From the NCBI RefSeq assembly GCF_016107395.1, contig NZ_JAAIKO010000007.1:124001-188000 (forward strand): DNA of 64,000 nucleotides. The letters run 5' to 3'. The translations under genes were made by a program, and so were the position numbers. A model generated the notes under the pieces. It did no database searches. It worked only from the letters and a program-made list of their open reading frames with translations, and was not told the DNA's origin. Origin of the DNA: Streptomyces fildesensis (lineage in GTDB: Bacteria > Actinomycetota > Actinomycetes > Streptomycetales > Streptomycetaceae). Shown one piece after another: positions 52-25,708 of the stretch; within the stretch, counting starts at the first letter, position 1, and each line of letters opens with the position of its first letter.

Positions 52-1617
52 TCAGCCTTGCTCCCGCATCGTGTCGACGATGTCGCAGAAGCCCTGGGGC
101 AGGCTGCCGGAACCCGATGCCGGGCGGCTGCCGATCAGGAACTCCCCCACCGAGGACTCCGACGTCCAGTCCAGACCCAGGGCGCGCGCCGCCGCGTCGG
201 TGTCACCCGAACCGAGCCCGCACGGTGCCAGACCCATCGCCGTCGCCACCAGGTAGAGGGTCTGGTAGAGCACTCCCACGTGCTTGAGCGTCAGCGCGTA
301 CGCGATCTGGCTGTACTTCCACGACAGCCGGCCGAACCGCGAGGTCACCGTCAGCAGCACCTGCGGATCCACCGTGCAGTTGGTGGCCCGCCATGCCGCC
401 GTCAGCAGTTCCCTGAACGCCGCTTCGTCAGCCGCGCCGTGCCAACGGCGCGGCTGCAGTCGGTGTGCGGCGGCGTCGTAGCGGTAGACCCCGGTGGGCA
501 GCCCCTCGCAGGCGGCGACCGACAGATAGATCTCCAGCTCGCCCGTGGCGCCGCCGGCCGGGTAGGGGCGGTCGATCGCGTCGTACGAGTTCGGGGAGGA
601 CGGGTCGCGCGGGATCACCTGACGGACCCGGGCCGCCCGGTAGAGCAGTTCGGCGATCTGCTCCAGCGTCACCGGGGTCTCCGCGTAGGTGCGGATGGAC
701 CGGCGCCCCTCCAGCACCTCGGTCAGCCGCGGGTCCCGGGCCGTCACCTCGTCCCAGTCCGGCACCGGCAGGTCGATACCCGGCTCGTCCTCGTTGCTCC
801 CGGCGCCCGGCAGGGCCGGCGGGTGCGGTACGTCCTGGTGGGCGAAGACGCCGCCGCTGGTGTAGTCGTGCCGGCCGGCCCTGCTGCGGGAGTGGAAGAG
901 CAGGTCGTGGAAGTCCCACAGCGGCGGGTCCGCCGCCGGGAGCGCGGGGGCGGCGCCCACCGCGGCACCCGCGGCGGGCTCCATGAAGCCGGTCCCCGCC
1001 AGCAGGGCGGCCAGCGCGGCGCCCGACTGCTCCGGCAGCCCGGCCAGCGCGGCCGCCTCCGCCACGGTGCGCGGCGTGGTCAGCGCCGCGACGAACGCCG
1101 CCGCGGCCGACTGGTGCAGTGTCACCCGGTAGGGCGCCAGCGGGGATTCCATGACGCAGCCCTGGCCGATCGTTCCCCCGCCGCCGTCGGCGGGTCCGTC
1201 GGGCAGTCTGCGCAGATAGGCGAACCGGGACAGCACCACGGCCGTGGTGCCGAGGTCCGGCGCGCCGGGTGTGGCCGCCGAGCGGGCGATCGGCACGGCG
1301 GTGGCCAGCGGTCCGGTCAGCGGGTCGTCGAGGATGCTGGTCACCAGATAGGGGAACCGGCCCAGCAGGCTCAGCAGCCGGCCGGCCTCGCGGTCCCCGG
1401 CCAGCGCGTCGGCGTCGACCGGTCCGGCGCCCAGCGCCAGCAGCCGGCGCACGGTCGGCGCGCCGAGCGCGTGGACGCGCTGGCGGCCCCAGGGGTGGGT
1501 GAGTTCGACGTCGTCGCCCTCCGCCGCCACTTTTACGTCCTGGCGGAGCGTCAGCATCCGTCGTACCCGGGACAGTTCGGCGTCAGCGGTGGTCAGCGGC
1601 TGTTCTGTGATGGTCAT
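52..1617 (-). CDS. SagB/ThcOx-type azoline dehydrogenase
   Basis: A 521-residue protein of the nitroreductase-like SagB family, FMN enzymes that oxidise thiazolines and oxazolines to azoles in linear azole-containing peptides. The C-terminal half carries the nitroreductase start (RRSIRTYAETPVTLEQIAEL, near residue 305) and the conserved end block (LKHVGVLYQTLYLVATAMGL, then GEFLIG). The N-terminal 280 residues are the usual winged-helix-like extension. The ATG is preceded by GGAAGG about 9 nt upstream. It is the last gene of the precursor-to-dehydrogenase operon, 21 nt after the YcaO gene. Together they predict oxidised azoles. The family is firm; the substrate is inferred from context. Confidence 0.9.
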   Translation of the reverse strand: MTITEQPLTTADAELSRVRRMLTLRQDVKVAAEGDDVELTHPWGRQRVHALGAPTVRRLLALGAGPVDADALAGDREAGRLLSLLGRFPYLVTSILDDPLTGPLATAVPIARSAATPGAPDLGTTAVVLSRFAYLRRLPDGPADGGGGTIGQGCVMESPLAPYRVTLHQSAAAAFVAALTTPRTVAEAAALAGLPEQSGAALAALLAGTGFMEPAAGAAVGAAPALPAADPPLWDFHDLLFHSRSRAGRHDYTSGGVFAHQDVPHPPALPGAGSNEDEPGIDLPVPDWDEVTARDPRLTEVLEGRRSIRTYAETPVTLEQIAELLYRAARVRQVIPRDPSSPNSYDAIDRPYPAGGATGELEIYLSVAACEGLPTGVYRYDAAAHRLQPRRWHGAADEAAFRELLTAAWRATNCTVDPQVLLTVTSRFGRLSWKYSQIAYALTLKHVGVLYQTLYLVATAMGLAPCGLGSGDTDAAARALGLDWTSESSVGEFLIGSRPASGSGSLPQGFCDIVDTMREQG

Positions 1618-1638
1618 GGCGCGCCTTCCGTCCTGCGG

Positions 1639-3969
1639 TCAGATGAAGATGGCGGTCGGGTTGAGGTCGGCCTCCGCGGTGGGCGCGGCCTTCCAGCCCA
1701 GCCGCACGGGAACGTCGTAGAGCCGGCCGGGCGCGAACCGGGCCCAGAAGTGCCGCATCCCGGGGACGATCACCTTGGCGACGGGCAGGCCCACATCGGG
1801 GCGGGTCTGGTCCAGGACGAGCATCTCCATGCCGTGGTCCGCCACCAGGCGCTGCACCGTCTCGAGGTCCGTGCGCAGATCGTCGGCGGCCAGCGGGTCC
1901 CAGCGGCCGGCCGCGGCGGGGGCGTGGCCGTCGAGGGGCCTGAGGTACGGCTGGTTGGCCAGCGTCGCGCTCTTCCACCAGGCCTTCTGCTCGTGGTCGG
2001 CGCCCGAGTACGTCGTCTCGCCGGGACCGGCGTCGGCCACCGGTGACAGGAACTGGTTCATCTCGGTGAGGGCCCGGGTCAGCGCGATGTGCGGATCGAG
2101 GTGGGCGCCGAACGCGATCAGGATGTCCTCGGCCGGCTTGTCGGTCCGCCGGGAGAACGCGCCCACCACCGGGATCCCGAAGTCGGCCGTCAGGTCCAGG
2201 GCCCACATCTCACGGTTCAGGCCCGCGTAGACCTCGCGCATCCGGTCGATGTACGGGTCGCCGAAGGAGTCCAGGTCGACGGCCGGTCGCTGGACGCGGT
2301 TGTACCACCACAGGGCGACCGCGTCACGTTCCACGAGCTCCAGGAAGCCCTGCAGCGTCGCGTCCTCGAACGAGGTGCCCGCGGCGGCCCCGTTGGAGTC
2401 GCCCATGGCGAAGAACGGGCCGTTGTGCCGGTAGCCGTAGTACAGCGACATCGTCGGCAGCCAGCGGGTGCGCTCCGACGTCAGCGACCAGGCGGGCGAC
2501 CACTCGATGACCGCGTCCTCGCGGAACCGCTCGGGCACGGTGTTGAACATCGACTTCTTGGCGTTCCACAGCTCCCGCTCGCGGAACTGCCGGTCGCTGA
2601 AGAGCAGGCTGGTGGACGGGTGCACCGCCTGCTCGCCGAGCTCCTCGTAACGGGCGGTGCGGCGCGCCTCGTCGCCCTGGAACACCCCGGAGTAGCGCTC
2701 CATCGCCTCGCCCATCGCGCTCGCCCGCGCCTGCGAGTCCGTCCGCCCCTTGCCGCAGCTGATGCTGCGCAGACCGGTACGGAGCTGGCGCAGGTCGCCG
2801 ACCTGGCGGGCGAGGTTCTGGCCCGCGACGTAGACCCGCAGGCCGCCGGGCGTCCGTTCGGCGGGCACCAGGGTGGTCACCACACCGGTGACCGGGCTGA
2901 GCTGGGGCCGGTACTTCAGCAGCATGTCCTCGGGCGAGGCGGACCGGTGGCCGCCGTCCGCGGTGAACGCCTTGGCCCGGCTCTCGAAGCGCACCGGTGC
3001 CAGCTGGCGGCGCTCCATGGTCGCGGCGTCGCCGCAGGACGGGCACTGCGGCCGGCGGACCAGCTCATGGCGTTCCGCCTCGGCAAGCACGGTGTCGAAC
3101 GTCAGCACCTGGGCCTTCTCCGGGCGGACGCCCGCGGCCCACTTCGCCGCCTCCAGCGCGGCGAGCTGCACCCCGAGGGCGGCCGTGGGCGCCAGGTGCG
3201 CCCCGACGGTCGGTACCGGCTGGTCCCTGCCCAGCCGGTGCTGGAGGTAGCTGAGCGACTGCCGGTTGGCGGAGAGCCGGTGCGCGAGGCACTCCCAGCA
3301 GCCGGTTCCGGTGCCGGGCGCTCCGGCCGGGGTGTCCGCGGACGCCGGTGCGTCCGGGACGAAGACCGGTCCCGCCCAGACGATCGAACCGACCGGACGG
3401 GCGAGCATCCACGGGGTGCCGGAGGCGAGGGCGGCCGCGTTCCGGCCCGCAAGGCCGGGGTTGAGGTAGTCGTCGGTCAGCGCGACGACGAGGTCGGCAC
3501 CCTCGGTGTCGGCGGGCGGCGCGTCCGCCGGTGCGAGCGCCACGTGCGCGGCGCCGGCCGCGAGCAGCGCCGCGACGAACGGCTCCGGTGTCACCTTCCC
3601 GTAGACCTCCACCCGCACCCGGGCGTCCCGCAGCGCGGCGACGGCCGTGTCGCCGTCGCGGCCCGCCATCTCGAAGAATCCGGCGGCGGCCGGGTCGGTC
3701 CCCGGGTCGGAGGCGGCGGCCCAGCCACCGGCCACGAGTTGGTCCAGGGCCACCGCTACCCGGTCGGCGGGCACCGCGGGCGCCAGCTCAGCACCGATCT
3801 CGTGGGCGCTCCTGGTGCCGTCCAGGAGCGGCGCCAGCCGTTCGGCCAGTGAGCCGTTGACGACGCAGACGCCGCGTTCGGACACCAGGTAGACGGCCTC
3901 GCCGTCGACGACGTAGGGGGTGTAGTGCCGCTTGAAGCCGATGCCGGGCGTCGGCCGGGTACTGGTCAT
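1639..3969 (-). CDS. Fused TOMM leader-binding / YcaO cyclodehydratase
   Basis: A 776-residue fusion. Residues from about 1 to 350 form the TOMM leader-peptide-binding (E1-like, cyclodehydratase C/F) part, with two Cys pairs that likely hold structural zinc (GCWECLAHR and PQCPSCGD). The rest is a YcaO domain that activates backbone amides with ATP to form azolines from Ser and Cys. Typical ATP-site motifs are visible: SAMGEAMERYSG, LQGFLELVERDAVALWW and ALTRALTEMNQ. The protein ends in NPTAIFI rather than the proline-rich PxPxP tail of many azoline-forming YcaO enzymes. The ATG has GGAG about 8 nt upstream. It sits between the LanM and dehydrogenase genes. Family call is firm; which core residues it cyclises is unknown. 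Confidence 0.92.
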   Translation of the reverse strand: MTSTRPTPGIGFKRHYTPYVVDGEAVYLVSERGVCVVNGSLAERLAPLLDGTRSAHEIGAELAPAVPADRVAVALDQLVAGGWAAASDPGTDPAAAGFFEMAGRDGDTAVAALRDARVRVEVYGKVTPEPFVAALLAAGAAHVALAPADAPPADTEGADLVVALTDDYLNPGLAGRNAAALASGTPWMLARPVGSIVWAGPVFVPDAPASADTPAGAPGTGTGCWECLAHRLSANRQSLSYLQHRLGRDQPVPTVGAHLAPTAALGVQLAALEAAKWAAGVRPEKAQVLTFDTVLAEAERHELVRRPQCPSCGDAATMERRQLAPVRFESRAKAFTADGGHRSASPEDMLLKYRPQLSPVTGVVTTLVPAERTPGGLRVYVAGQNLARQVGDLRQLRTGLRSISCGKGRTDSQARASAMGEAMERYSGVFQGDEARRTARYEELGEQAVHPSTSLLFSDRQFRERELWNAKKSMFNTVPERFREDAVIEWSPAWSLTSERTRWLPTMSLYYGYRHNGPFFAMGDSNGAAAGTSFEDATLQGFLELVERDAVALWWYNRVQRPAVDLDSFGDPYIDRMREVYAGLNREMWALDLTADFGIPVVGAFSRRTDKPAEDILIAFGAHLDPHIALTRALTEMNQFLSPVADAGPGETTYSGADHEQKAWWKSATLANQPYLRPLDGHAPAAAGRWDPLAADDLRTDLETVQRLVADHGMEMLVLDQTRPDVGLPVAKVIVPGMRHFWARFAPGRLYDVPVRLGWKAAPTAEADLNPTAIFI

Positions 3970-4035
3970 GGTGACTCCGTAGTCCGAATTGGGGCGGGGC
4001 GGGCCGGGCTGCGACCCAGGGCGTTGGTGCCGGGC

Positions 4036-7000
4036 TCAGCGCAGGGTGGCGAGCGGGGCGGTGGCCGGGTCGATCAGCCGCAGCAGGAGGAGGCCGACGG
4101 CGGCGCCGCCGTCCAGCGCGCCGAGGTTGACGCGGTCGTCGGCGGCGCGGTCCCCGAACCAGCTGCCGGTGGCGTGGTGCCGGCGCAGCAGTTCGGCGAC
4201 GAGGACGCCGGCCGCTTCCCGGCCGTCGAAGAACGGTCCCGGCACCAGGGTCTCGGCGGTGCTGCCGGCGAGGTCGTCGTCCAGGGTGTGCAGCAGGCCG
4301 GCCTCGGCCGAGGTCAGTGCCTCGCCCGCTGCGGCGACCAGTTCGCGGGTGCCGAGCGCCGCGATCTCGGCGGCGGTGACGGGCGGGGTGAGCCAGGCGA
4401 GGTCGCCGGGGTGGACGGCGCCGGTGCCCAGCGAGACGGCGGTGTCCAGGCAGGCCAGCCGTCCGCCGCGGGCGGTCGTCGTGAACCGGTGCGCGCGCAG
4501 CAGCGCGCGGGCGGCGTCGGGATCGGCCAGCAGGCCGGGCGCCTCCGCGACGGTACGGGCGAGGGCCGCGGCAATGCTGTCGGCGCCGGTCGGCACCAGG
4601 TCGAGGAAGGTCGCCGGGGTGGTGAAGCGGCCGGCCGGGGCGTCGCCCGCCAGTTCCCGGCGAGCGGCCTCGGCGAGGTCGCGGATCGCCGCGTCGGCGT
4701 CGGTGGCGACGCCCGTCGTTCCGGCGCCTGTGGCGCGGCGCAGCCGCAGCAGGTTCAGCAGCAGCCCGGCCGCGCCCAACGGGCTGTCCTGGTACGGGAG
4801 CCGGTCGGCGTCGCGGGCCGAGGACCGGCCGGCGGGCGCCGCCGCGAGGGCCGCCGCTCCGGGGACCAGTGCCCGCGCCACGTCGAGGAAGGCGGGCTCG
4901 GCGAGGGTTTCGGCGCCGCGGGCCAGGGCGTGGATGAGGGAGCCGGGTCCGGCGAGACCGCCGGGCACCGGGACCCCCGAGGCCAGCCGGGTGTCGCGGG
5001 CGAAGCCGAAGGAGGCCGGGTGGCGCGGGTCGATGAGGGAAGCCGCGGCCCACAGCGTCTCGTGCGCCGCCTGCCGGAAGCGCGGCGACCCGGTCGCCGA
5101 CCACAGTTCGGCAAGGAACAGCGCCACGCCGACACCGCTGGTGACGAGGTCGACGCCGCTGAGCACCTCGACCTGGCGCAGCCCGGTGGCCGGGTACCAG
5201 CTCAGCCCGATCCAGCCGCCGCCCGCGGCGGTGCGCTGCCGGTCGGCGAGCATCCGGTCGCCCAGCCGCACGGCGTGGTCGAGGAGTTCACCGGACGTCG
5301 GTACGGAGAGCGAGGCCGGTCCCCGGGAGGCGGTGGTGGCCGGCGGGAGCTGCGTCCCGGACCGTGCCGCGTCGATGCAGCCGGAGAGGACCGCGGTGTG
5401 CAGATCCAGGTCGAAGCGGTCGAGTTCGGTGATGCGGGCGTGCAGCCGGTCCCAGGCGGTGCTCTGGAAGTGACCGGGGATCTCGTGGCCCTGGGCGGTG
5501 AACACCGAGGACGACGTGGTCAGCGAGCGGAAGAACGGGATGTCCAGGACGCGGTAGGAGTCGAGTTCGCTGAGCACCACCTCCAGCAGGTCGCCGCGTG
5601 CGCTGTCGCCGGCGCGGGCGGCCACGGCGCCGCGCAGGGCGCCGGCGATCACGGTCTCGCGGGTGGCGCCGTCGGAGAGCGCGAGCGGGCTGGTCGAGGT
5701 GCGCAGGATCTTGTAGCCGTCCCAGGTGTGCCGCCAGATGTAGCGCACCCAGACGCCCTTGAAGCCGGCCAGCGGGCCGTCGGGGGACGCCAGCCGGTCC
5801 CGCATCCCGGCGAGTGTGCGGTGCATGTCGCGGTAGCCCGCGACGACCTCGTCCGCGTACTCCCACGGGTCGGCCTTCTCGCCGCCGTGCACCGGCCGGT
5901 ACGGCGGCAGTGGCAGGGCGGGCTTGCCGGGTTCGATCTCCAGGTCATCGGCGCGGGAGAGGCAGCCGATGTCCACCACCGGGCGGTCCTTGGACGGCAC
6001 CCACGGCTGCACGGCCATGGCCGTGCGCACGACGGTCGACTCCAGTACGTCCAGCAGTCCACCCTGGCCCGCGGGCAGCGCCGGCGGGGTCTGGACCCGC
6101 GGGTAGAGCAGGCACTCCAGATCGGTGATGACCGGATACTCGCCGCTGGCCAGCAGGTTGTCGGACCACAGGTCGCGGCCTTCGAGCAGCTGCACCAGCC
6201 GGACGGTCATCCCGAGCCGGCGGTAGAAGCGGGCGAAGCCCTCCCGGTCGGTGCAGGGCAGCGCGGGAACGAGCTCCTCCCAGCCGTAGGCGTCGCCGTG
6301 GTCGGACTCGTGCTCGGTCGCCGGATCGGCGGCGGGGCCGGTCGCGGCGCCGTCGTCCGGTGCGCTGTGGTCGCTGCGCACCAGCACGGTGCGGACGTGG
6401 AGTTCGGGTGACAGGCCCGCGGCGTTGAGGTCACGGACCAGGTCCATGTAGGCCGTGGCGTGCCGCAGGTCCTTCGGCTTGTAGACGACGCCTTGGCCGT
6501 CCGCGAAGTGCAGCAGCGCGACGGACCGGCCGCCCGCGTGGCGGTCGCCCGCGTCACCGTGCACCGCGGCCAGCGCGCCCGGGTCGGCGCCGTCCCAGAG
6601 GCGGGTGCGCAGCAGTTCCCGGTCGGAGGCGAGCCGGGCGAACATCTCGGTGTAGACGTGCTGCCAGTGGCGGCAGGCGGTGCCGACGAGGAAGGCGAGC
6701 GCGGGCAGCCGTTCCAGCCGGGCCAGCCAGCCCTCCTGCGAGGCGTCGGGGCCGCCCTGCGCGTCCCAGTCACCACCGCCGGGGTGCGCGGACGACGACT
6801 GGACCTCGTAGCGCATCGGCAGGTCCAGCGCCTCGGTCAGCCGCCGCACCAGGGTCTCCGCCAGGTCGGCCCGCGCGGAGTCGAGCACCTGGACACCGAG
6901 CACGGACGCGGTGTCCGCGGCTCCCGTGAGGTCGTAGGGCAGCAGGGCTCCGGCGGCGGTGCGGAAGGACGCGGTGATCGCACCCGGTGCGACGGTCTCG

Positions 7001-7443
7001 GCGGTGGGGGCGGCGGGCTGGGCGCGCAGGAAGCCGATGAGGGCGTGCGCCCAGTCCGGGACGACGGACGGGTCGCGCAGCGCGACCGGCCGCAGCCCGT
7101 CGCCGAGTTCACGGCCGGTGGCCGCCAGGTGGTCGAGCAGCACCCCGGCCGACGCCGGGTCGCCCGCCGCCCGCCGCAGCCAGCCCGCGACGGCGGTGGA
7201 ACGGCTGTGCTGTTCGTCCTCGGCGGCGGCGAAGACGGGTGGTCCGGCCCCGTCCGGTGTCCCGTCGGCGGTGGTCGAGGCCGCGGCGCGCTCCGGGAAG
7301 GAGGCGGCCAGGGCGATCACGGCACGCAGCCGGTCGTCACCGCGGGGGACGCCGGGCAGGAGCGTGCCGTCGCCCGCCGGGGACCCGGCGGCCGTTCCCG
7401 GCACGGCGGGGGTGGTGAGCCAGGCCTGCAGGTCGAGCGTCAT
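4036..7443 (-). CDS. LanM-type lanthipeptide synthetase with degenerate cyclase
   Basis: A 1135-residue class II lanthipeptide synthetase homologue. The N-terminal dehydratase half (DUF4135) has GDRHAGGRSV and VVYKPKDLRH near residues 295-325, RDLWSDNLL near 426, ITDLECLL just after, and VRYIWRHT near 568, matching the phosphorylation and phosphate-elimination core of CylM. One expected His is Trp (DLW instead of DxHxEN). The C-terminal half keeps the LanC repeat rhythm (VDLVTSGVGVALFLAEL; VNLGALDGGAAVGLLLLRL), but it has one Cys (ACLDTAVS, about residue 998) and no WCxG or CHG zinc motifs, so cyclase activity looks lost. It probably dehydrates Ser to Dha only. The ATG at 7443 begins 1 nt after the upstream stop; a longer in-frame opening is out of context. 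Confidence 0.88.
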   Translation of the reverse strand: MTLDLQAWLTTPAVPGTAAGSPAGDGTLLPGVPRGDDRLRAVIALAASFPERAAASTTADGTPDGAGPPVFAAAEDEQHSRSTAVAGWLRRAAGDPASAGVLLDHLAATGRELGDGLRPVALRDPSVVPDWAHALIGFLRAQPAAPTAETVAPGAITASFRTAAGALLPYDLTGAADTASVLGVQVLDSARADLAETLVRRLTEALDLPMRYEVQSSSAHPGGGDWDAQGGPDASQEGWLARLERLPALAFLVGTACRHWQHVYTEMFARLASDRELLRTRLWDGADPGALAAVHGDAGDRHAGGRSVALLHFADGQGVVYKPKDLRHATAYMDLVRDLNAAGLSPELHVRTVLVRSDHSAPDDGAATGPAADPATEHESDHGDAYGWEELVPALPCTDREGFARFYRRLGMTVRLVQLLEGRDLWSDNLLASGEYPVITDLECLLYPRVQTPPALPAGQGGLLDVLESTVVRTAMAVQPWVPSKDRPVVDIGCLSRADDLEIEPGKPALPLPPYRPVHGGEKADPWEYADEVVAGYRDMHRTLAGMRDRLASPDGPLAGFKGVWVRYIWRHTWDGYKILRTSTSPLALSDGATRETVIAGALRGAVAARAGDSARGDLLEVVLSELDSYRVLDIPFFRSLTTSSSVFTAQGHEIPGHFQSTAWDRLHARITELDRFDLDLHTAVLSGCIDAARSGTQLPPATTASRGPASLSVPTSGELLDHAVRLGDRMLADRQRTAAGGGWIGLSWYPATGLRQVEVLSGVDLVTSGVGVALFLAELWSATGSPRFRQAAHETLWAAASLIDPRHPASFGFARDTRLASGVPVPGGLAGPGSLIHALARGAETLAEPAFLDVARALVPGAAALAAAPAGRSSARDADRLPYQDSPLGAAGLLLNLLRLRRATGAGTTGVATDADAAIRDLAEAARRELAGDAPAGRFTTPATFLDLVPTGADSIAAALARTVAEAPGLLADPDAARALLRAHRFTTTARGGRLACLDTAVSLGTGAVHPGDLAWLTPPVTAAEIAALGTRELVAAAGEALTSAEAGLLHTLDDDLAGSTAETLVPGPFFDGREAAGVLVAELLRRHHATGSWFGDRAADDRVNLGALDGGAAVGLLLLRLIDPATAPLATLR

Positions 7444-7444
7444 C

Positions 7445-9736
7445 TCAGATCTCCTGGGGTCGGACGAGGCGGGTGAACAGGGGGTCGTGGTCGAGCAGTT
7501 CGTCGTAGGTCCCCGAGGCGGTGACCCGCCCGGCGTCCATGACGTGGATGCGGTCGGCCCGGCGGATGGTGCTGAGCCGGTGGGCGATGACGATGCGGGT
7601 GCGGTCGAGGGCGGCCACGGCGTCGGCGACGTGGGCCTGGGTGGCGTTGTCGAGGGCGGATGTCGCCTCGTCGAGCAGCAGCACGGCGGGGCGTCTGACC
7701 AGCGCGCGGGCGAGCAGGATGCGCTGGATCTGACCACCCGAGAAACCCTGCGCGTCCTCACCGATGCGAGTGCCCAGGCCGAGCGGCAGGGCCCGGAGTT
7801 CGGCGGCGATGCCGGCTTGTTCCGCGGCGGCCCAGACGTCGTCCTCGGTGACGTCGGGGTCGGTGCCCGCCAGGTTCTCCAGCAGGTTGCCGCGCAGCGT
7901 CCGCCCGTTCTGCAGGACGGTGCCCAACTGTCCGCGCACCAGGCGCAGATCGAGGGCGGCGAGGTCCTGTCCGTCATGCCGCACGGTTCCGGACTCGGGG
8001 ATGTCGAACCCCAGGATCAGCCGGATCAGTGTGGACTTGCCGGCGCCGGACGCTCCGACGACGGCGACGAACTCGCCCTCCTCGGCCCGCAGGCTGACAC
8101 GGTCCAGAGCCGGCACCGCAGCGCCCGGGTAGCGGAAGGTCACCTCTTCGAGGGCGACCGCGCCGCCCAGCACCCCGGGGTCGCGGCGGTGCGGTCCCGA
8201 GGCGGGGACGGCGGGCGCCGCGAGCACCGGCCGCAGCCGGTCCAGCACCGGCGCGATGCCGTACGCGGTGGCCGCCGCGTGGGTGAGCTGGCCGAGTGCC
8301 AGCGCCACCTGTCCGGCCGCGATACCGGCTGCCATCAGATGCCCTGCGGAGACGCCCCCGGCGCCCCCGGCGGCTGTCGCCGCCAGCAGCACGGCGAGCA
8401 GCAGCGGTTGCAGAGCGGCGGTGACGGCGCCCGATGCGGCGTCGGTGCGCATCGCGGCGGCGTCGGCGCGCTTCTGCCGGGCGAAGGGCCCGGCCCAGCG
8501 GGCGAAGGCCTGGATCTCGCGCCCCGCCGTCTGGAGCTTGTCGATGCCCAGCAGCAGCCCGTACAGCACTCCGTGCAGCCGGCCGTGCAGCGCGTACACC
8601 TCGGATTCGTACCGTTGCCTGCGCCGTCCCAGCAGGAGCAGGACGGTGACGGCGGCGACGGCGGCGGCCAGCAGCACACCGCCGAGCCGCAGATCCACGG
8701 TGAGCAGCAGCAGAAGTCCCGACAGCGAGAAGAACGCTCCCAGTACCGCGGAGACCAGCACTTCCGACAGTGCCTGCCGGGCCTCGGCGACGGCGTTGGC
8801 CCGGTGCACGAGGTCGCCGGTGGAGAAGTCCCGGAAGAACCGGGCGTCATGGGTGAGCAGCCGGTCCCAGACGGCCGGTTCCAGCGCCGCCTGGATGCGT
8901 CCGGTGAGCCGCACGGCGGCGGTGTTGCGGACCAGCAGGAGCAGGAGTCCCGCCGCCGAGGCCGCGCCGAGCAGCAGCGCCAGCCAGCGCAGCGGGTGGC
9001 GGTCGGCGGCCAGCAGCCGCGGCACGAGCAGTCCGGCGCTCAGTGGCACGAGCAGCGTCAGAACGGCGGTGAGCAGACCGGCGCCCGCGAGGACCACCAG
9101 GTCGCGCCGGGTGCCGGGGGCGCCGAGCGCGAAGCGCAGCAATGAACCGGGGGTCGGGGTGCCGGGCGGCAGCGGCCGGTAGAGCAGCAGCGCCTGGCGT
9201 GAGCAGGCGGGTCCCGCCGGCCGGCGCCGGGCACCGCCGGTGTCCCGGGCCGCCGGATCGTGCACCAGATGGCCCCGGCCGCGCGGCACGAGGGCGAGCG
9301 GGCGGCCGTCGTCGGAGGCGAACGCGATCATCGCACCGGCGGTGCCACCGGGATCACCGTGAACGTCGTCGCCGTCCGGACTCTTTGCGCCCTTGGGCGC
9401 CTTGGCGGCCGGGAGGGTGACCTGCCGCCAGCGCACGCCCAGCCGCCGCAGCAGGGCGATCAGCGGGTCGCGGGCAGTGCGCACCGAGGCGGGCAGTTGG
9501 GCCGGCACCTCGATCCCCAGGGCGGGGCCGAGGGCCGCGAGCACGGCGAGTGCGTGGGCGGCGGCGTCCGGCGGTGGGACGGCCACCGCGCGGGCCTCCC
9601 CGCTCGGGCGGCGGGCCGCCGGGCCGAGCCCGTCGAGCGCGGCCGCGAGGGTCGCGCGGTTGGCCGCCGCCGTCGCGTTCAGTGCGGCCGTCGCGTCGGC
9701 GGCGCGGCTGCGCTCCGCCTGCTGAGTGGGCGTCAT
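7445..9736 (-). CDS. NHLM-type bacteriocin ABC transporter, ATP-binding/permease
   Basis: A 763-residue half-transporter of the kind paired with a peptidase-ABC protein in NHLM bacteriocin export systems. It has a long N-terminal soluble region (about 1-200), an ABC membrane domain with several helices (about 215-480), and a C-terminal ATPase with Walker A GASGAGKST, signature FSGGQIQR, Walker B VLLLDEATSAL and the H-loop IAHRLSTI. No C39 peptidase triad is present, unlike its partner. The start at 9736 forms an ATGA overlap with the upstream peptidase gene. It likely forms a heterodimer with that protein to export the modified peptide. Confidence 0.9.
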   Translation of the reverse strand: MTPTQQAERSRAADATAALNATAAANRATLAAALDGLGPAARRPSGEARAVAVPPPDAAAHALAVLAALGPALGIEVPAQLPASVRTARDPLIALLRRLGVRWRQVTLPAAKAPKGAKSPDGDDVHGDPGGTAGAMIAFASDDGRPLALVPRGRGHLVHDPAARDTGGARRRPAGPACSRQALLLYRPLPPGTPTPGSLLRFALGAPGTRRDLVVLAGAGLLTAVLTLLVPLSAGLLVPRLLAADRHPLRWLALLLGAASAAGLLLLLVRNTAAVRLTGRIQAALEPAVWDRLLTHDARFFRDFSTGDLVHRANAVAEARQALSEVLVSAVLGAFFSLSGLLLLLTVDLRLGGVLLAAAVAAVTVLLLLGRRRQRYESEVYALHGRLHGVLYGLLLGIDKLQTAGREIQAFARWAGPFARQKRADAAAMRTDAASGAVTAALQPLLLAVLLAATAAGGAGGVSAGHLMAAGIAAGQVALALGQLTHAAATAYGIAPVLDRLRPVLAAPAVPASGPHRRDPGVLGGAVALEEVTFRYPGAAVPALDRVSLRAEEGEFVAVVGASGAGKSTLIRLILGFDIPESGTVRHDGQDLAALDLRLVRGQLGTVLQNGRTLRGNLLENLAGTDPDVTEDDVWAAAEQAGIAAELRALPLGLGTRIGEDAQGFSGGQIQRILLARALVRRPAVLLLDEATSALDNATQAHVADAVAALDRTRIVIAHRLSTIRRADRIHVMDAGRVTASGTYDELLDHDPLFTRLVRPQEI

Positions 9737-12072
9737 GACTGCTCCTGAACAGGACGGTTCGGGGTCGATGCGACCGGGGCGGCGGCGGTGGCGTCCTGGC
9801 CACCGGCCTCGGACAGCAGCGTCCGGTAGCGGCCCGGCACCGCGGCCAGTTCCGCCGGGGTGCCCTGCTGGACGATGCGGCCGCCCTCCAGGACGACCAC
9901 CCGGTCGGCGGAGCGGACGGTGCTCAACCGGTGGGCGAGCACCAGGCAGCTGGTACCGCGCCGCCGGAGGTGCGTGTTGACCAAGGCCTCGGTGCGGGCG
10001 TCCAGCGCGGAGGTCGCCTCGTCCAGCACCAGCAGCGGCGGGTCGAGGGCCAGCGCACGGGCCAGCTCCAGTCGCTGCCGCTCTCCGCCGGAGAGGTTCC
10101 GTGCGTCCTCCTCGATCCGCCCGGCGTCCAGGCCACCACGGCCACGGACCAGGTCGGCGGCCTCGGCGTCGGCGAGCGCCCGGTGCAGGGCGGTCTCGTC
10201 GGCCGCCGGGTTCCACAGCGTGAGGTTGTCGCGCATGGTGCCCTCGAAGAGCCGCAACCGCTGCTCCACGTAAGCGACCTGGCTGGTCACCACGGCGCGC
10301 GGCAGTGATTCGCGCGGCACTCCGTCCAGCAGCACGTCGCCGGTCCAGGGCCGGAGCACTCCGGCGGCGAGCCGGGCCAGCGTGGACTTGCCGCTGCCGC
10401 TCGATCCGACGACCGCGACCCACTCCCCCGGCCGCACCGTCAGCGAGATGCCCTCCAGCGTCGCCGGCCGGTTGGGGTCGTAGCCGAAGGAGACGTCCCG
10501 CAGCTCCAGCAGGCCGCTGAGCGCGACGGGTCCGGCCGAGCCGTCCACCGGGTCCAGGACGGCCGTCAGATAGGGGTCGGGCTCGGAGAGTTCGACGTCG
10601 TCGAGGAGCGCGGACTGGGCTCGCGCCATCGTCAGCTCGGATCCCGTGCCGACGAGCTGGGTGACCGGCAGCAGGAACCCGTTGAGCAGCAGCAGGAAGG
10701 CGAGCAGCGTTCCTACGGTCACGCTGCCGCCGATCAGCAGCGCGGTCCCGGCCACCACGACGGCCGCGGTGCCCGCCGTAGTGAGCGCGGTCGGCAGTGA
10801 GAGCGGTACGAGGACGGCGGTGGCGACGTTCTGCGCGGTGTCCATGGCCCGCGCCTGCCAGCCCGACCAGGAGCGGAAGAACGAGTCCTCGGCCCCCTCC
10901 GCCTTCAGTGTCTCGATGGCGGAGATCCCGGCGAAGGCCACCCCGTCGCGCTTGTGCTGCTCGGAGTGGAGCTGGTGCAGCATGCCGCCGCGCCGCCGGT
11001 CGGCGAGTTTCAGGGCCGCGATGTCGATGACCGCCACCACCACCGGCACGATTGCCAGCCGGGGTTGCAGCCAGATCAGAGCCGCGAGATGCGCGGCGGC
11101 GGTGGCGGCCGAGGCGGCGGCGCCGGCGGCGCGGTACGAGAGCAGCGCCGAGAGCCCGTCGTTGATCTGGACCCTGGTCACCAGACCGCCGAGCTGCCTG
11201 CGGTGGAAGAACGAACCGGGCAGCCGCAGCATGCGCCACAGGAATCCGGTCGAGGTGCGGGCCGCCATGGAGGCCAGCACCCGGTTGACGACGCTCTGTT
11301 GCAGCCAGGTGCCGAGCAGCACCGCGGCGGCCGAACCGCCGGTGGCCAGGACCAGCGGGAGGGCCCAGGCGCCGGTTCCGCCGATCGTCACCGAGGTGAG
11401 GTAGGCCCGCAGCAGGAACGCCGCGGCCATCGCGGGAACGGTGAGCAGCACCGCGACCAGCACGGCGATCAGCAGCGCGAACCCGTACGGCCGGATCCTC
11501 GTCAACAGCCCCCGCAGGAACGGGAACCGGGCTCCGCCCCGTTCGAAGTCCGGCCCCGGTTCGAAGCCGACCGCGATGCCCGCGAAGGAGTCCCAGAACT
11601 CGGCCGGTGTCGCCGAATGGCTGCCCAGCGAGGGATCGTTGACGCGTACGCGGCCGCGCTTGATGCCTTCGAAGACCGCGAAGTGCGGACCGGTGACGAG
11701 CACCATCGACGGCACCGGCACGGCGTCCAGGCCCAGCAGCCGGTCCTCGCCGCGCACCACCCGGCGGCCCCGCGCCACCAGGCCGTAGCGGCCCGCGGCG
11801 CGGGCCACCGCGGCGGCGCTCACACCGTCGCGGGAGACACCGCAGGAGCGGGACGCCTCGTGCAGGGTCGTCCGGCGGCCGAACGCGCCGAGGACGATCG
11901 CGAGACAGGCGGCGCCGCAGTCCTGCTCCTCCATCTGCGGGACGACGGGCGTCCGCAGATAGCGGCGCCGGCGGCCCGCGCGGACAGCGCTGCTCTTCGG
12001 TGGCGGACCCGGGGCGGCCGCCGCCGGCTCCTGGCTCTTCCGCTCCTCGGCGGTCCGGGTGTCGAGGCTCAT
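9733..12072 (-). CDS. C39 peptidase / ABC exporter (NHLM type)
   Basis: A 779-residue peptidase-containing ABC transporter. The N-terminal C39 domain has the catalytic Cys in EEQDCGAACLAI (Cys52), a His in GPHFAVFEG near 130 and an Asp in VNDPSLG near 145. Such domains cut leaders after Gly-Gly, and the precursor at 14405-14566 ends its leader in SGG. A transmembrane domain and an ATPase follow (Walker A GSSGSGKST, signature LSGGERQR, DEATSALD). The start overlaps the upstream secretion-protein gene by 4 nt and the stop overlaps the next gene as ATGA. Leader removal and export are therefore both assigned here with good confidence. Confidence 0.93.
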   Translation of the reverse strand: MSLDTRTAEERKSQEPAAAAPGPPPKSSAVRAGRRRRYLRTPVVPQMEEQDCGAACLAIVLGAFGRRTTLHEASRSCGVSRDGVSAAAVARAAGRYGLVARGRRVVRGEDRLLGLDAVPVPSMVLVTGPHFAVFEGIKRGRVRVNDPSLGSHSATPAEFWDSFAGIAVGFEPGPDFERGGARFPFLRGLLTRIRPYGFALLIAVLVAVLLTVPAMAAAFLLRAYLTSVTIGGTGAWALPLVLATGGSAAAVLLGTWLQQSVVNRVLASMAARTSTGFLWRMLRLPGSFFHRRQLGGLVTRVQINDGLSALLSYRAAGAAASAATAAAHLAALIWLQPRLAIVPVVVAVIDIAALKLADRRRGGMLHQLHSEQHKRDGVAFAGISAIETLKAEGAEDSFFRSWSGWQARAMDTAQNVATAVLVPLSLPTALTTAGTAAVVVAGTALLIGGSVTVGTLLAFLLLLNGFLLPVTQLVGTGSELTMARAQSALLDDVELSEPDPYLTAVLDPVDGSAGPVALSGLLELRDVSFGYDPNRPATLEGISLTVRPGEWVAVVGSSGSGKSTLARLAAGVLRPWTGDVLLDGVPRESLPRAVVTSQVAYVEQRLRLFEGTMRDNLTLWNPAADETALHRALADAEAADLVRGRGGLDAGRIEEDARNLSGGERQRLELARALALDPPLLVLDEATSALDARTEALVNTHLRRRGTSCLVLAHRLSTVRSADRVVVLEGGRIVQQGTPAELAAVPGRYRTLLSEAGGQDATAAAPVASTPNRPVQEQS

Positions 12073-12938
12073 CGCCCGGCCCCCGTACCCAGGATGACCT
12101 GGTAGGGGCGGCGGGAGCCGAGGTCGACGGAGACGTCCACGGGCACCGGGCCGTACGTCGGGGGCAGCGCGCCGGACGCGGCATCCGGCACGGCGGTGAT
12201 CGTCCAGACCGGGTCGGCCCCCGACCCCAGGTCGCTTTCGCCGAGCGGCAGTGCGCCGTCGAGCGAGTCGGCGCGGGCGGGATACGGGTCCACGGCCGTG
12301 ATGCGGGCGCGCACCGTGCCGGACGGCAGGGGCAGCAGTACGGACTGGCCGGGTCGCAGGCGTGCCAGGTCCCGGGCGGAACCGGTGTAGAGCCGCAACG
12401 TGGCCGGTTCGCCGGCCGGGTCGAGCGCGAGCAGCGCGGCCCCGGCCGGCAGAGTGCCGCCGGGCGCGGTCAGCACACCGGCGACCGTGCCGTCCGCGGG
12501 AGAGCGGAGCTCGGCGGTGCCGCCCGGGCCGGGGGCCGTGGTGCGCAGCAGCGCGAGGAGCTGCCCGCGGGTGACCCGGTCCCCCGGGCGGACCCGCAGG
12601 TCGAGCACCGTACCGGCGACGTCGGCCCGGGCGAGGACCGGCGCGGGGCCGTGGGCCAGCACGCCGTGCAGGGACAGGGTGTTCGGGAGCGACCCCCAGC
12701 CCACCCAGGCACCGCCCGCCCCCAGGGCCAGGACCAGGGCGACGAGGGCGGAGCCGAGGCGGCTGCCGATGACACGGACCGGGCGGTCGAGGCCCGGTTC
12801 GAGCTGTGCGGCAGCCGCCGCGGCGGCGATCGTCACCGCTTGAGCGGACGGGCCCGTTCGCTCCGCTGACGCGGGCGGTTCTCCGTCGGGGACGGCCGGG
12901 ACGGTCTTCATCGGGATCGTTGTCGTCATCGCCGTCAC
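12069..12938 (-). CDS. HlyD-like NHLM bacteriocin secretion protein
   Basis: A 289-residue adaptor with a short cytoplasmic N-terminus, one membrane segment near residues 60-82 (SALVALVLALGAGGAWVGW) and a biotinyl-lipoyl-like barrel (VAGTVLDLRVRPGDRVTRGQ, then SPADGTVAGVL). This is the third member of the NHLM export trio. The GTG start is chosen because GTGA overlaps the stop of the P450 gene; an ATG three codons further in is the alternative. It likely links the two ABC proteins to the cell exterior. In a Gram-positive host its exact job is less clear than for classical HlyD. Confidence 0.82.
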   Translation of the reverse strand: MTAMTTTIPMKTVPAVPDGEPPASAERTGPSAQAVTIAAAAAAAQLEPGLDRPVRVIGSRLGSALVALVLALGAGGAWVGWGSLPNTLSLHGVLAHGPAPVLARADVAGTVLDLRVRPGDRVTRGQLLALLRTTAPGPGGTAELRSPADGTVAGVLTAPGGTLPAGAALLALDPAGEPATLRLYTGSARDLARLRPGQSVLLPLPSGTVRARITAVDPYPARADSLDGALPLGESDLGSGADPVWTITAVPDAASGALPPTYGPVPVDVSVDLGSRRPYQVILGTGAGR

Positions 12939-14170
12939 ATCCCCGCGCCGAGGGAGGTGAGCTGCCTGACCTCGACGGGCAGTTCCCGCAGCCCGCCGAA
13001 GACGAACTGCTCGCTCCAGCGGGCGGTGCTCTCGTCGAGCGGGGTGCTCAACTCCCGCTCGGCGCCTGCCGCCGCGAGCAGGGCCAGGACCGTTCCGCCG
13101 GCCATCAGCGACAGCGGAGCGCCCAGGCAGTGGTGCGGCCCGTGTCCGAAGGCCAGATGTCGGCGCTCCGCCCGGGCCGGGTCGAATCGGTCGGGATCGG
13201 GGAAGCGGCGCGGATCGCGGTTGGCGGCCGCGTACAGCAGCAGCACCACCCGTCCGGCGGGCAGCAGTGTGTCCCCGGCCTGTACGTCGCCGCCCAGCCC
13301 GCGGGCGCTGGCCCGTACCGGGCTGCCCAGCCGCTGGCATTCGTCGAAGACGGCCTCGGCGGTGTGCGGTTCCGCGCGGATTCCGGCGGCCAGCGCGGGG
13401 TTCCGCAGCAACTGCCAGGCGGCGACCGCGAGTCCGGAGGTGAGTGTTTCGAGCCCGTTGGCGAACAGCATGACGACGAAGGCGAGCAGGTCCTCGTCGT
13501 CCAGCTGTCCCGCGTCCCTGGCCAGGACGAGGCGGCTGATGAGATCGCCGCCGGGACGCGCCGCGCGGGCGGCGCACAGCTCTTCGACCCAGTCGCGGAA
13601 CCCCTCGAACTCGGCGTCCAGGGCGGCGGTCTGTTCGGCGCCGGCGAACGGGTCCAGGAGGGACCGGGCGACCAGTCCGGCCCAGCCGGTGACCCGCTCG
13701 CGCTCTTCGGGCGGCACGTCGAGGATCGCGCACGACACCGCCACCGGCAGCGGCACGGCGAGGTCGGCCACCAGGTCGAAGGAGCCGCCGGCCAGCAGGG
13801 GCGCGAGCAGTTCCTCGGTGGTGTTCTCGATCCTGGCGCGAATCTCGGCGAGCCGGCGGGCGCTGAACGCGGCGGTCGCGAGGCGCTTCAGCCGGGTGTG
13901 GTCGGCGCCGTCCCGCATCGGCAGCGTACGGGCGAGCACCTGGGCGAGTGCGGAGGAACCGGGGCGGTCGAGCCCGATCGCGGCGGGGTCCACCGCGGTT
14001 CCGGGGTGCATCAGGACGGTGACGATCTCCTCGTAGCCGGAGATGACGTGGACGCGTCCCAGGTCCAGTACCGGGGCCTCGGTCAGCAGCCGCCGGTAGA
14101 GCCCGGCGGGGTCGCGTCGCGCGGCCGGGTCCTGGATGAACCGCGTGAGCTGGTGGCGGAGGCTTTCCAT
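12935..14170 (-). CDS. Cytochrome P450 of the RiPP cluster
   Basis: A 411-residue bacterial P450. The haem-binding loop FGHGPHHCLG is intact, and the ERR-triad arginine region (ANRDPRRFPDPDRFD) is present. The I-helix reads FANGLETLTSG instead of the usual AGxxTT, so the oxygen-activating Thr is shifted. The start at 14170 has AAGGAG about 8 nt upstream and gives family-typical length; a longer in-frame opening to 14287 would run through hairpin sequence. It is the first enzyme gene after the precursor and overlaps the next gene by 4 nt. It probably hydroxylates or otherwise oxidises the peptide; the target residue is not predictable from sequence. Confidence 0.9.
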   Translation of the reverse strand: MESLRHQLTRFIQDPAARRDPAGLYRRLLTEAPVLDLGRVHVISGYEEIVTVLMHPGTAVDPAAIGLDRPGSSALAQVLARTLPMRDGADHTRLKRLATAAFSARRLAEIRARIENTTEELLAPLLAGGSFDLVADLAVPLPVAVSCAILDVPPEERERVTGWAGLVARSLLDPFAGAEQTAALDAEFEGFRDWVEELCAARAARPGGDLISRLVLARDAGQLDDEDLLAFVVMLFANGLETLTSGLAVAAWQLLRNPALAAGIRAEPHTAEAVFDECQRLGSPVRASARGLGGDVQAGDTLLPAGRVVLLLYAAANRDPRRFPDPDRFDPARAERRHLAFGHGPHHCLGAPLSLMAGGTVLALLAAAGAERELSTPLDESTARWSEQFVFGGLRELPVEVRQLTSLGAGM

Positions 14171-14258
14171 GCCCGGTTCTCCTTGTCGGTCCGTGAGTTG
14201 GTCGATGTATCGATGTGTCGTTGTGTCGTCAGGGATGGAGCCGGGTGCCGGACGAGGG

Positions 14259-14295
14259 GCGCCCCGGTGGGACCGTTCAGGTCCCACCGAGGCGC
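14259..14295 (-). terminator. Strong hairpin downstream of precursor gene (distal)
   Basis: The arms CGGTGGGACC (14265-14274) and GGTCCCACCG (14280-14289) pair perfectly around a 5-nt loop. The stem extends outward by about five more pairs (GCGCC / GGCGC) past one mismatch. No U-tract follows, which is normal in streptomycetes. Lying between the precursor and P450 genes, it most likely attenuates read-through so that more precursor than enzyme is made, or stabilises the precursor mRNA 3' end. Confidence 0.6.
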
Positions 14296-14313
14296 GGATT
14301 CCCGCGGCCGTGG

Positions 14314-14346
14314 CGGGCCGGCGGAGCGATGACGCCCGCCGGCCCG
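14314..14346 (-). terminator. Hairpin downstream of precursor gene (proximal)
   Basis: An 11-bp perfect stem: GGGCCGGCGG at 14315-14324 pairs with CCGCCGGCCC at 14336-14345, with one further C-G pair outside. The loop is 11 nt. It lies 58 nt past the precursor stop codon and precedes the second hairpin in transcription order. Likely a partial terminator or processing site. Confidence 0.55.
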
Positions 14347-14404
14347 GCCTCAGTCGGCCGCTACTGCGTCAGACTCGGAGGCCTTACCAACACGGACCGT
14401 GAGG

Positions 14405-14566
14405 TCAGTTGGAGACCGAGCTGAAGGACGAGACCGGGCAGGCCGCGGAGAGCAGCGAGCTGACGCTGATGCCGCCGGAGACGGTGTCCAGCTCCTCGAC
14501 CTCGATGTCGAACTGCTCGGTCTCGGCGACAGCGGCGGTCTCGGTGATGTCCTTGTTGTCAGCCAT
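14405..14566 (-). CDS. RiPP precursor peptide (Ser-rich core, GG leader)
   Basis: A 53-residue peptide. The ATG at 14566 has GAGAGGAG upstream at good spacing. The leader (residues 1-32) is acidic, has an FDIEVEELD motif resembling those of lanthipeptide and thiopeptide leaders, and ends in SGG, a C39 cleavage site. The core (33-53) is 21 residues with Ser at core positions 2, 4, 5, 8, 14, 15, 17, 18 and 20, one Cys at 11, no Thr, and C-terminal Asn. Such a Ser-rich, Cys-poor core suits azole formation plus Ser dehydration, not lanthionine rings. It is the first gene of the enzyme operon, diverges from an ABC exporter, and is followed by two hairpins. Confidence 0.9.
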   Translation of the reverse strand: MADNKDITETAAVAETEQFDIEVEELDTVSGGISVSSLLSAACPVSSFSSVSN

Positions 14567-14847: not shown

Positions 14848-15819
14848 ATGAAAGAGATTCCCGAAGTCATAGAAGTAGTGGAATTGCGGCAGTCCTACGG
14901 GGACTACGAAGCAGTACGCGGAGCGTCTTTCACCGTCCGGCGCGGAGAGCTGTTCGCGCTGCTGGGAACGAACGGCGCCGGCAAGACCACCACCCTCGAG
15001 GTCGTCGAGGGCTACCGTCCGCCCACCGCGGGTACGGTGCGGGTGCTGGGACTGGATCCCTACGCGGACGGGCCCGCGCTCCGCCGCAGGACGGGGGTGA
15101 TGCTCCAGGAGGGCGGATTCTTCAAGGAGTTGACCGTCCGGGAGACGGTGGACGCCTGGCGCCGTTTCAGCGGGCGGGCCCGCGCCACCGCCGACGTCCT
15201 CGGCCAGGTACGGCTCGACACCAAGGCCGGCACCCGCGTCGGCCAGCTCTCCGGGGGTGAGCGCCGCCGGCTGGACCTCGCGCTCGCCGTGCTCAACGAC
15301 CCCGAGCTGCTCTTCCTCGACGAGCCCACCACAGGCATGGACCCCGAGGCCCGCCGCAACACCTGGCAGCTCGTCAGGGAACTGCGGGCGGCCGGCACCA
15401 CCGTGGTGCTGACCACGCACTACCTGGAAGAGGCCCAGCAACTCGCGGACCGGGTCGCCATCATGGACGCCGGCCGCATCACCGCCACCGGCACCGTCGC
15501 CGAGGTCCTCTCCGGGCAGCGCAGCCGGATCACCTTCCCGCTGCCGTTCGCCACCACCGCCTCGGACCTGCCGCGGCTTCCCGGCGCGGACCTGGCCGTA
15601 CAGGGTGACGCGGTGTCCTACGCCGTCGCCCGGACGGCGCCCGCGCTGGCCGTCCTGCACGACTGGGCCGGCGCGCGCGGTGTCGAACTCGACGGCATCG
15701 AAGTACGGCACGCCTCGCTGGAGGACGTGTTCCTCGCCCTCGCCGGCGACCAACGGACGGCGTCCGACGACCACGGCACCGTCCGCCCGGACCACCACAG
15801 CAAGGCGGCCGCCCGATGA
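14848..15819 (+). CDS. ABC transporter ATP-binding protein (DrrA-like)
   Basis: A 323-residue ABC ATPase of the drug/bacteriocin exporter class with Walker A GTNGAGKTT, signature LSGGERRR, Walker B LLFLDEPTTGMD and H-loop TTHYLEEA, plus a C-terminal accessory domain. It overlaps the permease gene as ATGA. The ATG at 14848 matches the family N-terminus; a TTG 36 nt upstream is the alternative. Divergent from the precursor gene, the pair probably provides self-protection or extra export of the peptide. That role is inferred from position. Confidence 0.85.
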   Translation: MKEIPEVIEVVELRQSYGDYEAVRGASFTVRRGELFALLGTNGAGKTTTLEVVEGYRPPTAGTVRVLGLDPYADGPALRRRTGVMLQEGGFFKELTVRETVDAWRRFSGRARATADVLGQVRLDTKAGTRVGQLSGGERRRLDLALAVLNDPELLFLDEPTTGMDPEARRNTWQLVRELRAAGTTVVLTTHYLEEAQQLADRVAIMDAGRITATGTVAEVLSGQRSRITFPLPFATTASDLPRLPGADLAVQGDAVSYAVARTAPALAVLHDWAGARGVELDGIEVRHASLEDVFLALAGDQRTASDDHGTVRPDHHSKAAAR

Positions 15820-16625
15820 CCTGGACCCGCTACGCCCACGGCCAACTCCTGCTGTCCTGGAAGGTCTTCTGGCGCAACCGCCGCTCCACCTTCATCGGGT
15901 TCCTGCTCCCCGTCCTGCTGGATCTGTTCGTCGCGGCGCCCTTGCGCGACAAGGAGATCGGCGGGGTGAGCGCGGCCGGCTATGTCACCGTCGGCTTCAT
16001 CGGGCTGGCGCTCGTCACGTCCTTCGTCAATCTCCTCAACGCGGTCGTCGCCCGCCGCGACGATCTGGTGCTCAAGCGGCTGCGCGGTACGGAGGTGCCC
16101 CCCAGCGCCGTGTTCGCCGGCCAGATCGGCGCGAGCGGCATCGTCGTCCTGCTGCAGGCCGTGGTGCTGGGCACCCTCTCGGTGGGTCTGTTCCACGCGC
16201 CGCTGCCCGCCGACCCGGCGCTGCTGCTGCTCACCCTGGTCGCGGGCTATCTGCTGTTCGCCCTGCTCGCCGTGGCGCTGTCCGGGCTGACGCCGAGCGC
16301 CGAGACATCCCCGCTGGTCGCCACTCCGGTCCTCATGCTCTGCATGTTCGGCGCGGGCGTCGCGACGCCTCTGTCGTCGCTCCCCTCCTGGCTGCAGGGT
16401 CCGGCGCACGCCCTGCCCCTCACCCCGGTCGTGCAGGCCCTCCGAACCGCGTGGTTCGGCAAGAGCTTCGGCCAGGAGAGCTGGAACGGCGGCCCGTTGG
16501 CCGATCTCTCCTTCCTGCACACCTGGCAGTCCGCCGGCCCCGCCCTGCTGATCACCGCTCTGTGGACGGCCGGCGTGCTGCTGGCCGCCCGGCGCCTCTT
16601 CCGCTGGGAGCCCCGGCGCGCCTGA
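15816..16625 (+). CDS. ABC transporter permease (ABC-2 type)
   Basis: A 269-residue integral membrane protein with about six hydrophobic segments (for example residues 22-40, 50-75, 105-130, 138-160, 168-190 and a last one near 240-258), typical of ABC-2/DrrB permeases. The start overlaps the ATPase stop. It is the membrane partner of the preceding ATPase, and the two form a compact exporter operon that ends at a hairpin shared with the convergent esterase gene. Confidence 0.85.
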   Translation: MTWTRYAHGQLLLSWKVFWRNRRSTFIGFLLPVLLDLFVAAPLRDKEIGGVSAAGYVTVGFIGLALVTSFVNLLNAVVARRDDLVLKRLRGTEVPPSAVFAGQIGASGIVVLLQAVVLGTLSVGLFHAPLPADPALLLLTLVAGYLLFALLAVALSGLTPSAETSPLVATPVLMLCMFGAGVATPLSSLPSWLQGPAHALPLTPVVQALRTAWFGKSFGQESWNGGPLADLSFLHTWQSAGPALLITALWTAGVLLAARRLFRWEPRRA

Positions 16626-23814: not shown

Positions 23815-23910
23815 GGGACTCCAGAGGGGTGGGGGCGCGAGGGGGGCCGCTCTCGGAGGAGGTGGTTCCGTGGGACCGGTGGGGGGGATCCGTGGGACCG
23901 GGGGACGGGT

Positions 23911-23940
23911 GGTTCAGACGGGTTCAGAGGGGTTCAGAGG
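23911..23940. repeat. Tandem 10-bp repeat, three units
   Basis: Three adjacent units: GGTTCAGACG, then GGTTCAGAGG twice. The last unit contains the stop codon of the carboxylase gene and the others lie in the gap before the ligase gene. Nearby, GTGGGACCGG also recurs at about 23871 and 23892. Probably slippage-derived; no function is apparent. Confidence 0.6.
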
Positions 23941-25481: not shown

Positions 25482-25708
25482 GCGCGGCTCTCCTTCCCGG
25501 AGGGGGGATCCGGAATTCTGGAGCGTCATGGGGGCAACAGGTTCCGCTTCCGGGTGCCGGGCCACTAGAGCGGGGCGTGACAGCCGCCCGTCCGCCTTCT
25601 GTCACTCCGATGACAAGCCGAACGGCGGGTGCGGTGGTTAAGGTCGGACGGCCCCGAGCACATGACCCGCCAGGACCAGGGGCTCCTGACCCGGGAGAGG
25701 AGCCGCCG
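25482..25708. promoter_or_regulatory. Divergent promoter region with operator-like dyad
   Basis: This is the gap between the lipid-synthase operon (minus) and the exporter gene (plus). At 25600-25616 it contains TGTCACTCCGATGACAA, an inverted repeat that recurs with only three central changes at 27132-27148, just upstream of the PucR-type regulator gene. That placement suggests one regulator controls both promoters. Confidence 0.5.

Follow-up and report, generated by a model that had tools for sequence, protein, structure and literature searches.

An eight-gene operon pairs a YcaO enzyme with a LanM protein

We analyzed a stretch of 64,000 nucleotides from Streptomyces fildesensis (contig NZ_JAAIKO010000007.1, positions 124,001 to 188,000), hereafter the window, within which all gene coordinates are given. 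It carries an operon of eight minus-strand genes running from a precursor peptide gene (14566) to a SagB-type dehydrogenase gene (52). The gaps between genes measure -4 to +66 bp, except for 234 bp behind the precursor. An earlier note on this DNA had listed a precursor, a YcaO, a SagB, a LanM, a P450 and an export trio, and each of these genes was found on the minus strand at its reported place. The operon and the divergent gene pair beside it are organized as follows:

14405..14566, minus strand: precursor peptide, 53 amino acids (aa), with a 32-aa leader ending in GG and a 21-aa core ISVSSLLSAACPVSSFSSVSN
14171..14404, minus strand: spacer between precursor and P450, 234 nt, with strong hairpins; possible attenuator
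12935..14170, minus strand: cytochrome P450, 411 aa, with the stretch FGHGPHHCLG
12069..12929, minus strand: HlyD-like membrane fusion protein, 286 aa; TIGR03794 at 39.6 bits, under the cut-off; PF13437
9733..12072, minus strand: ATP-binding cassette (ABC) exporter with an N-terminal C39 leader peptidase, predicted to cut after GG
7445..9736, minus strand: second NHLM-type ABC permease/ATPase, 763 aa, without a DCGAA-type C39 motif
4036..7443, minus strand: zinc-less LanM (LanMbC-like dehydratase), 1135 aa, with a DxW active-site motif
1639..3969, minus strand: fused leader-binding/YcaO azoline cyclodehydratase, 776 aa
52..1617, minus strand: SagB-type flavin azoline dehydrogenase, 521 aa
14812..15819, plus strand: DrrA-like ABC ATPase, divergent; TIGR01188 at 219.3 bits, under the cut-off of 312.45
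15816..16625, plus strand: ABC-2 permease partner of the DrrA-like ATPase, seen in 28 of 30 loci, close to where their short flanks end

The modification enzymes are readily assigned. YcaO exceeds the cut-offs of TIGR03604 (276.8 bits) and TIGR03882 (121.8 bits), as does SagB that of TIGR03605 (164.4 bits). LanM reaches 303.1 bits against TIGR03897, just below the cut-off of 304, scored on a longer open reading frame (ORF) starting at 7977; we rejected this frame as a false extension and take the gene as 7443-4036. The three export genes of the earlier note are present. Their formal NHLM assignment did not hold, as the three NHLM models score 682.9, 612.9 and 39.6 bits, each under its own cut-off; thus, "NHLM trio" denotes the best match. 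The C39 domain carries the Cys/His/Asp motifs of C39 peptidases, and the P450 stretch matches the heme-binding consensus FxxGxxxCxG. Among the best 60 of 454 solved structures listed for the P450, the nearest act on other substrates and provide no functional lead. The precursor matches NF033482 (thiocillin family) weakly, at 20.7 bits against a cut-off of 25. The spacer behind it folds with a z-score of -6.06 (0 of 200 shuffles equally stable), and its hairpins may possibly act as an attenuator, yielding precursor in excess of the enzymes.

The cluster is conserved in Kitasatospora and related actinobacteria

The earlier note had proposed looking for LanM genes next to YcaO and SagB genes in actinomycetes. 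Scanning genome contigs with the window YcaO as query returned 46 loci, and in 13 of them P450, HlyD, both ABC genes, LanM, YcaO and SagB lie in identical order. Consequently, the gene set is not a chance assembly. One more locus (L020) carries the cluster truncated by a contig end, and tblastn with the window LanM likewise found matches in 14 of the 46 loci, all actinobacterial. LanM is full length (1053-1135 aa) in 12 of the 13 loci checked. Two genes among these 13 look broken and are either disabled or draft errors: the LanM of Kitasatospora cheerisanensis (L019, 6717-9113; 798 aa) and the SagB of Streptomyces sp. SPB162 (L010, 12338-13480; 380 aa). The cluster is conserved in Kitasatospora and related actinobacteria.

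The precursor gene lies upstream of the P450 gene in 13 of the 14 genomes looked at, out of a set of 16. The exception is Phytohabitans (L022/L068), where another short ORF with a Cys-rich end takes its place; in Phytohabitans maris (L022, 301-576) the gene order is kept and the ORF before the P450 gene ends Cys/Pro-rich, ELCFCAGTFCWPPVPP. Of 394 genomes sampled across the family, 30 carry the precursor, 8 from the window's genus and 22 from one other genus. In a phylum-wide sample (396 genomes) it was found in the window's genome, with one doubtful match (E 6.8e-4) that falls within an open frame of 890 aa, and outside Streptomycetaceae a protein search named one Kineosporiaceae metagenome-assembled genome (P0151). 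In all 30 family loci the precursor is flanked by the P450 gene and by the divergent DrrA-like ATPase gene. As the ATPase adjoins the precursor in 30 of 30 and the permease is visible in 28, we count this ABC pair in the cluster and predict a role in self-protection or export. The ATPase frame opens with a TTG at 14812, its first ATG being at 14848.

Two regulators lie past SagB, beyond the window edge (read in L085). On the other side, the minus strand of 17670-25565 encodes a one-module polyketide synthase (ketosynthase, acyltransferase, two carrier domains and thioesterase), an AMP-binding enzyme and an acyl-CoA carboxyltransferase subunit. This region is kept in L086, and the remaining compared loci end too early to judge.

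The YcaO is kin to that of a goadsporin cluster

One of the 46 YcaO loci, in Streptomyces monashensis MUSC 1 (L026, 723-17857), encodes the exact goadsporin precursor GodA, with the core ATVSTILCSGGTLSSAGCV as printed in PMC7231064. It also encodes a C39 ABC, a second ABC, YcaO, SagB, a protein with a lantibiotic dehydratase (LanB) N-domain (PF04738, 34.4 bits; no search was aimed at the second half, GodG), a GNAT and an Ffh-type protein. A DDE transposase gene (3391-4794) separates the Ffh-type gene from godA. No DUF4135 match was found in this genome.

In a YcaO tree of the window and 44 of the 46 loci (a length filter removed two), the goadsporin locus groups with one from Streptomyces bambusae (L021; support 100/99). 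This pair is sister to the LanM-linked clade within one actinobacterial clade (100/100). Support for the LanM-linked clade is 92/75 with Phytohabitans and 100/100 without it. L022 and L026 are flagged as long branches, and closer YcaO kin may be missing because the tree holds only loci returned by the scan. Ahead of its YcaO, the S. bambusae locus (5240-8000) encodes a row of varied short peptides that resemble precursors and have VEVEDLE-type leaders, possibly a multi-product azole peptide cluster, on a limiting contig.

Identity to the goadsporin cluster is 47% for YcaO and 40% for SagB. The best ungapped match between the two cores falls at register 0 (score 21, next 11), with p 0.006 for the fixed register and 0.049 over nine offsets; whole precursors give p 0.004. 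Goadsporin carries dehydroalanine (Dha) before an azole at positions 4-5 and 14-15 (PMC5303826), and the second of these is a Dha-oxazole (PMC5303826; PMC7231064). Both pairs coincide with Ser-Ser dyads of the window core. The systems have in common a short leader, a C39-peptidase ABC, a fused YcaO, SagB, a core of 19-21 residues and Ser-azole dyads at 4-5 and 14-15. They differ in that goadsporin relies on a GNAT acetyltransferase and on a tRNA-dependent LanB split into GodF and GodG (PMC5303826), while the window has LanM, P450 and the DrrA-like pair, and domain searches found no lantibiotic dehydratase domain among its operon proteins. Since the YcaO kin include the goadsporin cluster and the cores align in one register, LanM apparently replaces the goadsporin LanB.

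LanM lacks the cyclase zinc site

In the window LanM the columns of the zinc-binding Cys residues hold Thr988 and Thr1032, and neither a WCxG nor a CHG motif is present; without zinc ligands, lanthionine formation is not expected. In contrast to the class II synthetases CylM and LicM2, it has DxW in place of DxH, Trp426 standing for the catalytic His. Its kinase and lyase residues are otherwise intact, and D300, H302, K322, D424, N429 and D441 are invariant in 101 selected homologues. These 101 sequences were used for the structure model; a first model from ten close sequences was discarded (pLDDT 44.0). Among the matches listed, Trp replaces the catalytic His in 147 of 167 proteins without zinc motifs and in 0 of 54 with them. 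We infer that the protein is a DUF4135/LanMbC-like dehydratase whose LanC-fold domain would form no lanthionine.

Two LanMs matched by organism name to PMC10676384, from Cystobacter fuscus (P0088) and Ca. Thioglobus (P0201), are zinc-less DxW proteins like that of the window and lie to the non-His side of a single branch, P0201 as a long branch. PF13575 occurs in 16 of 27 genomes, including the actinobacterial L022 and L011. No YcaO was seen beside PF13575 genes on flanks of ~1.5 kb, a result that is uninformative as the YcaO-adjacent L105 and L107 gave the same blank. We set aside a metagenomic LanM-YcaO fusion (P0057), in which the N-terminal half of a DxW LanM runs mid-domain into a YcaO C-terminal half, as a probable assembly error.

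A predicted pathway to a linear azole and dehydroalanine peptide

A protein search with the precursor found 27 relatives. The resulting 28 precursors, some being the same peptide with a different start, comprise 15 distinct cores of 21 residues and 27 distinct leaders. Core residues S4, S5, L6, A10, C11, P12, V13, S14, S15, F16, S17, S18 and N21 are invariant in all 28, which includes three fixed Ser-Ser dyads (S4-S5, S14-S15 and S17-S18). At position 8, 13 sequences have Ser and 15 have Cys, an exchange that fits an azole site. Across the 30 family loci the Ser codons at 2, 4, 8, 15 and 17 switch between AGC and TCN, so it is the peptide, not the DNA, that is under conservation.

We consider it probable that the product is a linear, short-leader peptide of the goadsporin type, with azoles made by YcaO and SagB and Dha made afterwards by the zinc-less LanM. 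In this model, YcaO would bind the FDIEVEEL region of the leader and, with SagB, first form oxazoles and one thiazole at S2, S5, S8, C11, S15 and S18. LanM would then phosphorylate and eliminate S4, S14 and S17, the Ser preceding the azole of each dyad, its LanC-fold domain making no lanthionine. The P450 may oxidize the peptide at some position, the C39 exporter would cleave after GG and export the product, and the divergent ABC pair would protect the producer. On the best reading, therefore, the predicted product bears about six azoles and three Dha with further P450 oxidation. The earlier note had expected azoles plus Dha, and as a prediction we judge this right.

Several observations weigh against this model. 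The core resembles that of goadsporin modestly, with 6 identical residues out of 19, and no acetyltransferase domain was found among the operon proteins. Nor does the S. fildesensis genome show an extra strong Ffh of the GodI kind: another contig carries two strong SRP54 matches separated by ~8 kb, which we interpret as the standard Ffh and FtsY; there is no third strong one, and one further partial match scores 23.5 bits, just above the cut-off of 22.7. In the goadsporin locus, a full SRP54 gene lies nearby, and an extra copy of this kind serves as immunity in goadsporin-type clusters. Lacking both features, the product may differ from goadsporin in its end and its target. In addition, the Trp rule rests on homologues other than CcaM, the LanM-type enzyme of the published cca cluster. 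Finally, strict X-(Ser/Cys)-X triads match the core periodicity better (shuffle p 0.003) than the three Ser-Ser-hydrophobic triads do (p 0.05).

This last point underlies the main rival, in which the same enzymes would place azoles at 2, 5, 8, 11, 14, 17 and 20 and LanM would make a single Dha at S4. Each of the seven triads is centered on Ser or Cys, and the goadsporin YcaO and dehydrogenase read X1-(S/T/C)-X2 motifs (PMC5303826). Yet this register leaves S15 and S18 unmodified although they are invariant, and it modifies S20, which is Ala in 3 of the precursors (S2 is Ala in 2); goadsporin S14-S15, at the same positions, is moreover a Dha-oxazole. Because of which Ser residues vary, we regard it as unlikely, albeit a serious competitor. 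Intact mass would be ambiguous between the two: with a P450 present, exchanging one azole (-H4O) for two Dha and an oxygen leaves the mass unchanged, so that seven azoles and one Dha are isobaric, by computed mass, with six azoles, three Dha and O ([M+H]+ of the core 1883.817 for both, against 1867.822 for six azoles and three Dha).

It is very unlikely that LanM is a decayed passenger of an azole-only linear peptide cluster. The Trp for His exchange and the lost zinc site could be read as decay, but zinc-less homologues have Trp as a rule, the remaining active-site residues are invariant in the selected homologues, the gene is full length in nearly all loci checked, and CylM H349A retains slow activity (PMC4550811). 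Least credible of all is an ordinary class II lanthipeptide synthetase dehydrating Ser and joining lanthionine to the single Cys while YcaO acts elsewhere: the near-cut-off score, the whole-length LanM fold and precomputed LANC_like (PF05147) matches in some close homologues speak for it, against which stand the missing zinc ligands, the sole Cys, Cys11, being the best thiazole site, and an azoline-type YcaO and SagB sharing the operon in 13 of the 46 loci.

Returning to the goadsporin-type model, we tentatively propose, as possible though doubtful, that the split LanB was exchanged for a zinc-less LanM within the goadsporin lineage and that Trp426 reads the azole beside the Ser. Dehydration would then wait for the ring and need no leader. 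The near-frozen core would point to one conserved target or signal and not to an arms race.

Relation to dehydrazoles

The earlier note knew of no characterized product from this enzyme combination, a statement now out of date. The combination is not new, because the carnazolamide and nostatin A clusters already pair a LanM-type enzyme with YcaO. PMC10676384 (2023) defines dehydrazoles by a zinc-less LanM beside YcaO, in ~50 clusters with long nitrile-hydratase-like leaders; among them are the cca cluster of Chryseobacterium, which makes carnazolamide, and one with a P450 in Streptomyces sp. SN-593. There, CcaM works without a leader and dehydrates only Ser preceding an azole, with which the proposed kinase-type dehydration by LanM is consistent. 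The window shares with these systems YcaO, a dehydrogenase, a DUF4135 LanM without cyclase zinc ligands and the expected Dha-azole dyads. It differs in its 32-aa leader with GG site, its C39 exporter and its goadsporin-like core, and its operon has neither a radical SAM epimerase nor a methyltransferase. Nostatin A, from the cyanobacterial nst cluster, likewise involves a LanM-like enzyme (NstG) with YcaO and an oxidase and contains Dha/dehydrobutyrine-azole-X triads (PMC11583998), but has a nitrile-hydratase-like (proteusin) leader and a PoyD-like epimerase. Among the matches listed in a search of open-licence papers, neither the core nor its precursor family is described in any title or abstract. 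Thus, the novelty likely lies in the peptide itself and in the LanB/LanM swap, not in the published enzyme pairing. Zinc-ligand loss, goadsporin kinship, extreme core conservation and the divergent ABC exporter had gone unmentioned in the earlier note.

The cluster is real and well conserved, and joins dehydrazole-type enzymes to a goadsporin-type peptide, with its chemistry predicted. It appears to be a natural experiment in which the same-looking Dha-azole scaffold is reached by two unrelated chemistries, glutamyl-tRNA in goadsporin and ATP phosphorylation in the window. The two routes let one ask whether peptide or enzyme dictates the azole-first, Dha-second timing. DxW offers a one-residue genome marker for zinc-less, probably azole-reading LanMs, and the frozen core in 30 of 394 family genomes is a concrete compound to seek.
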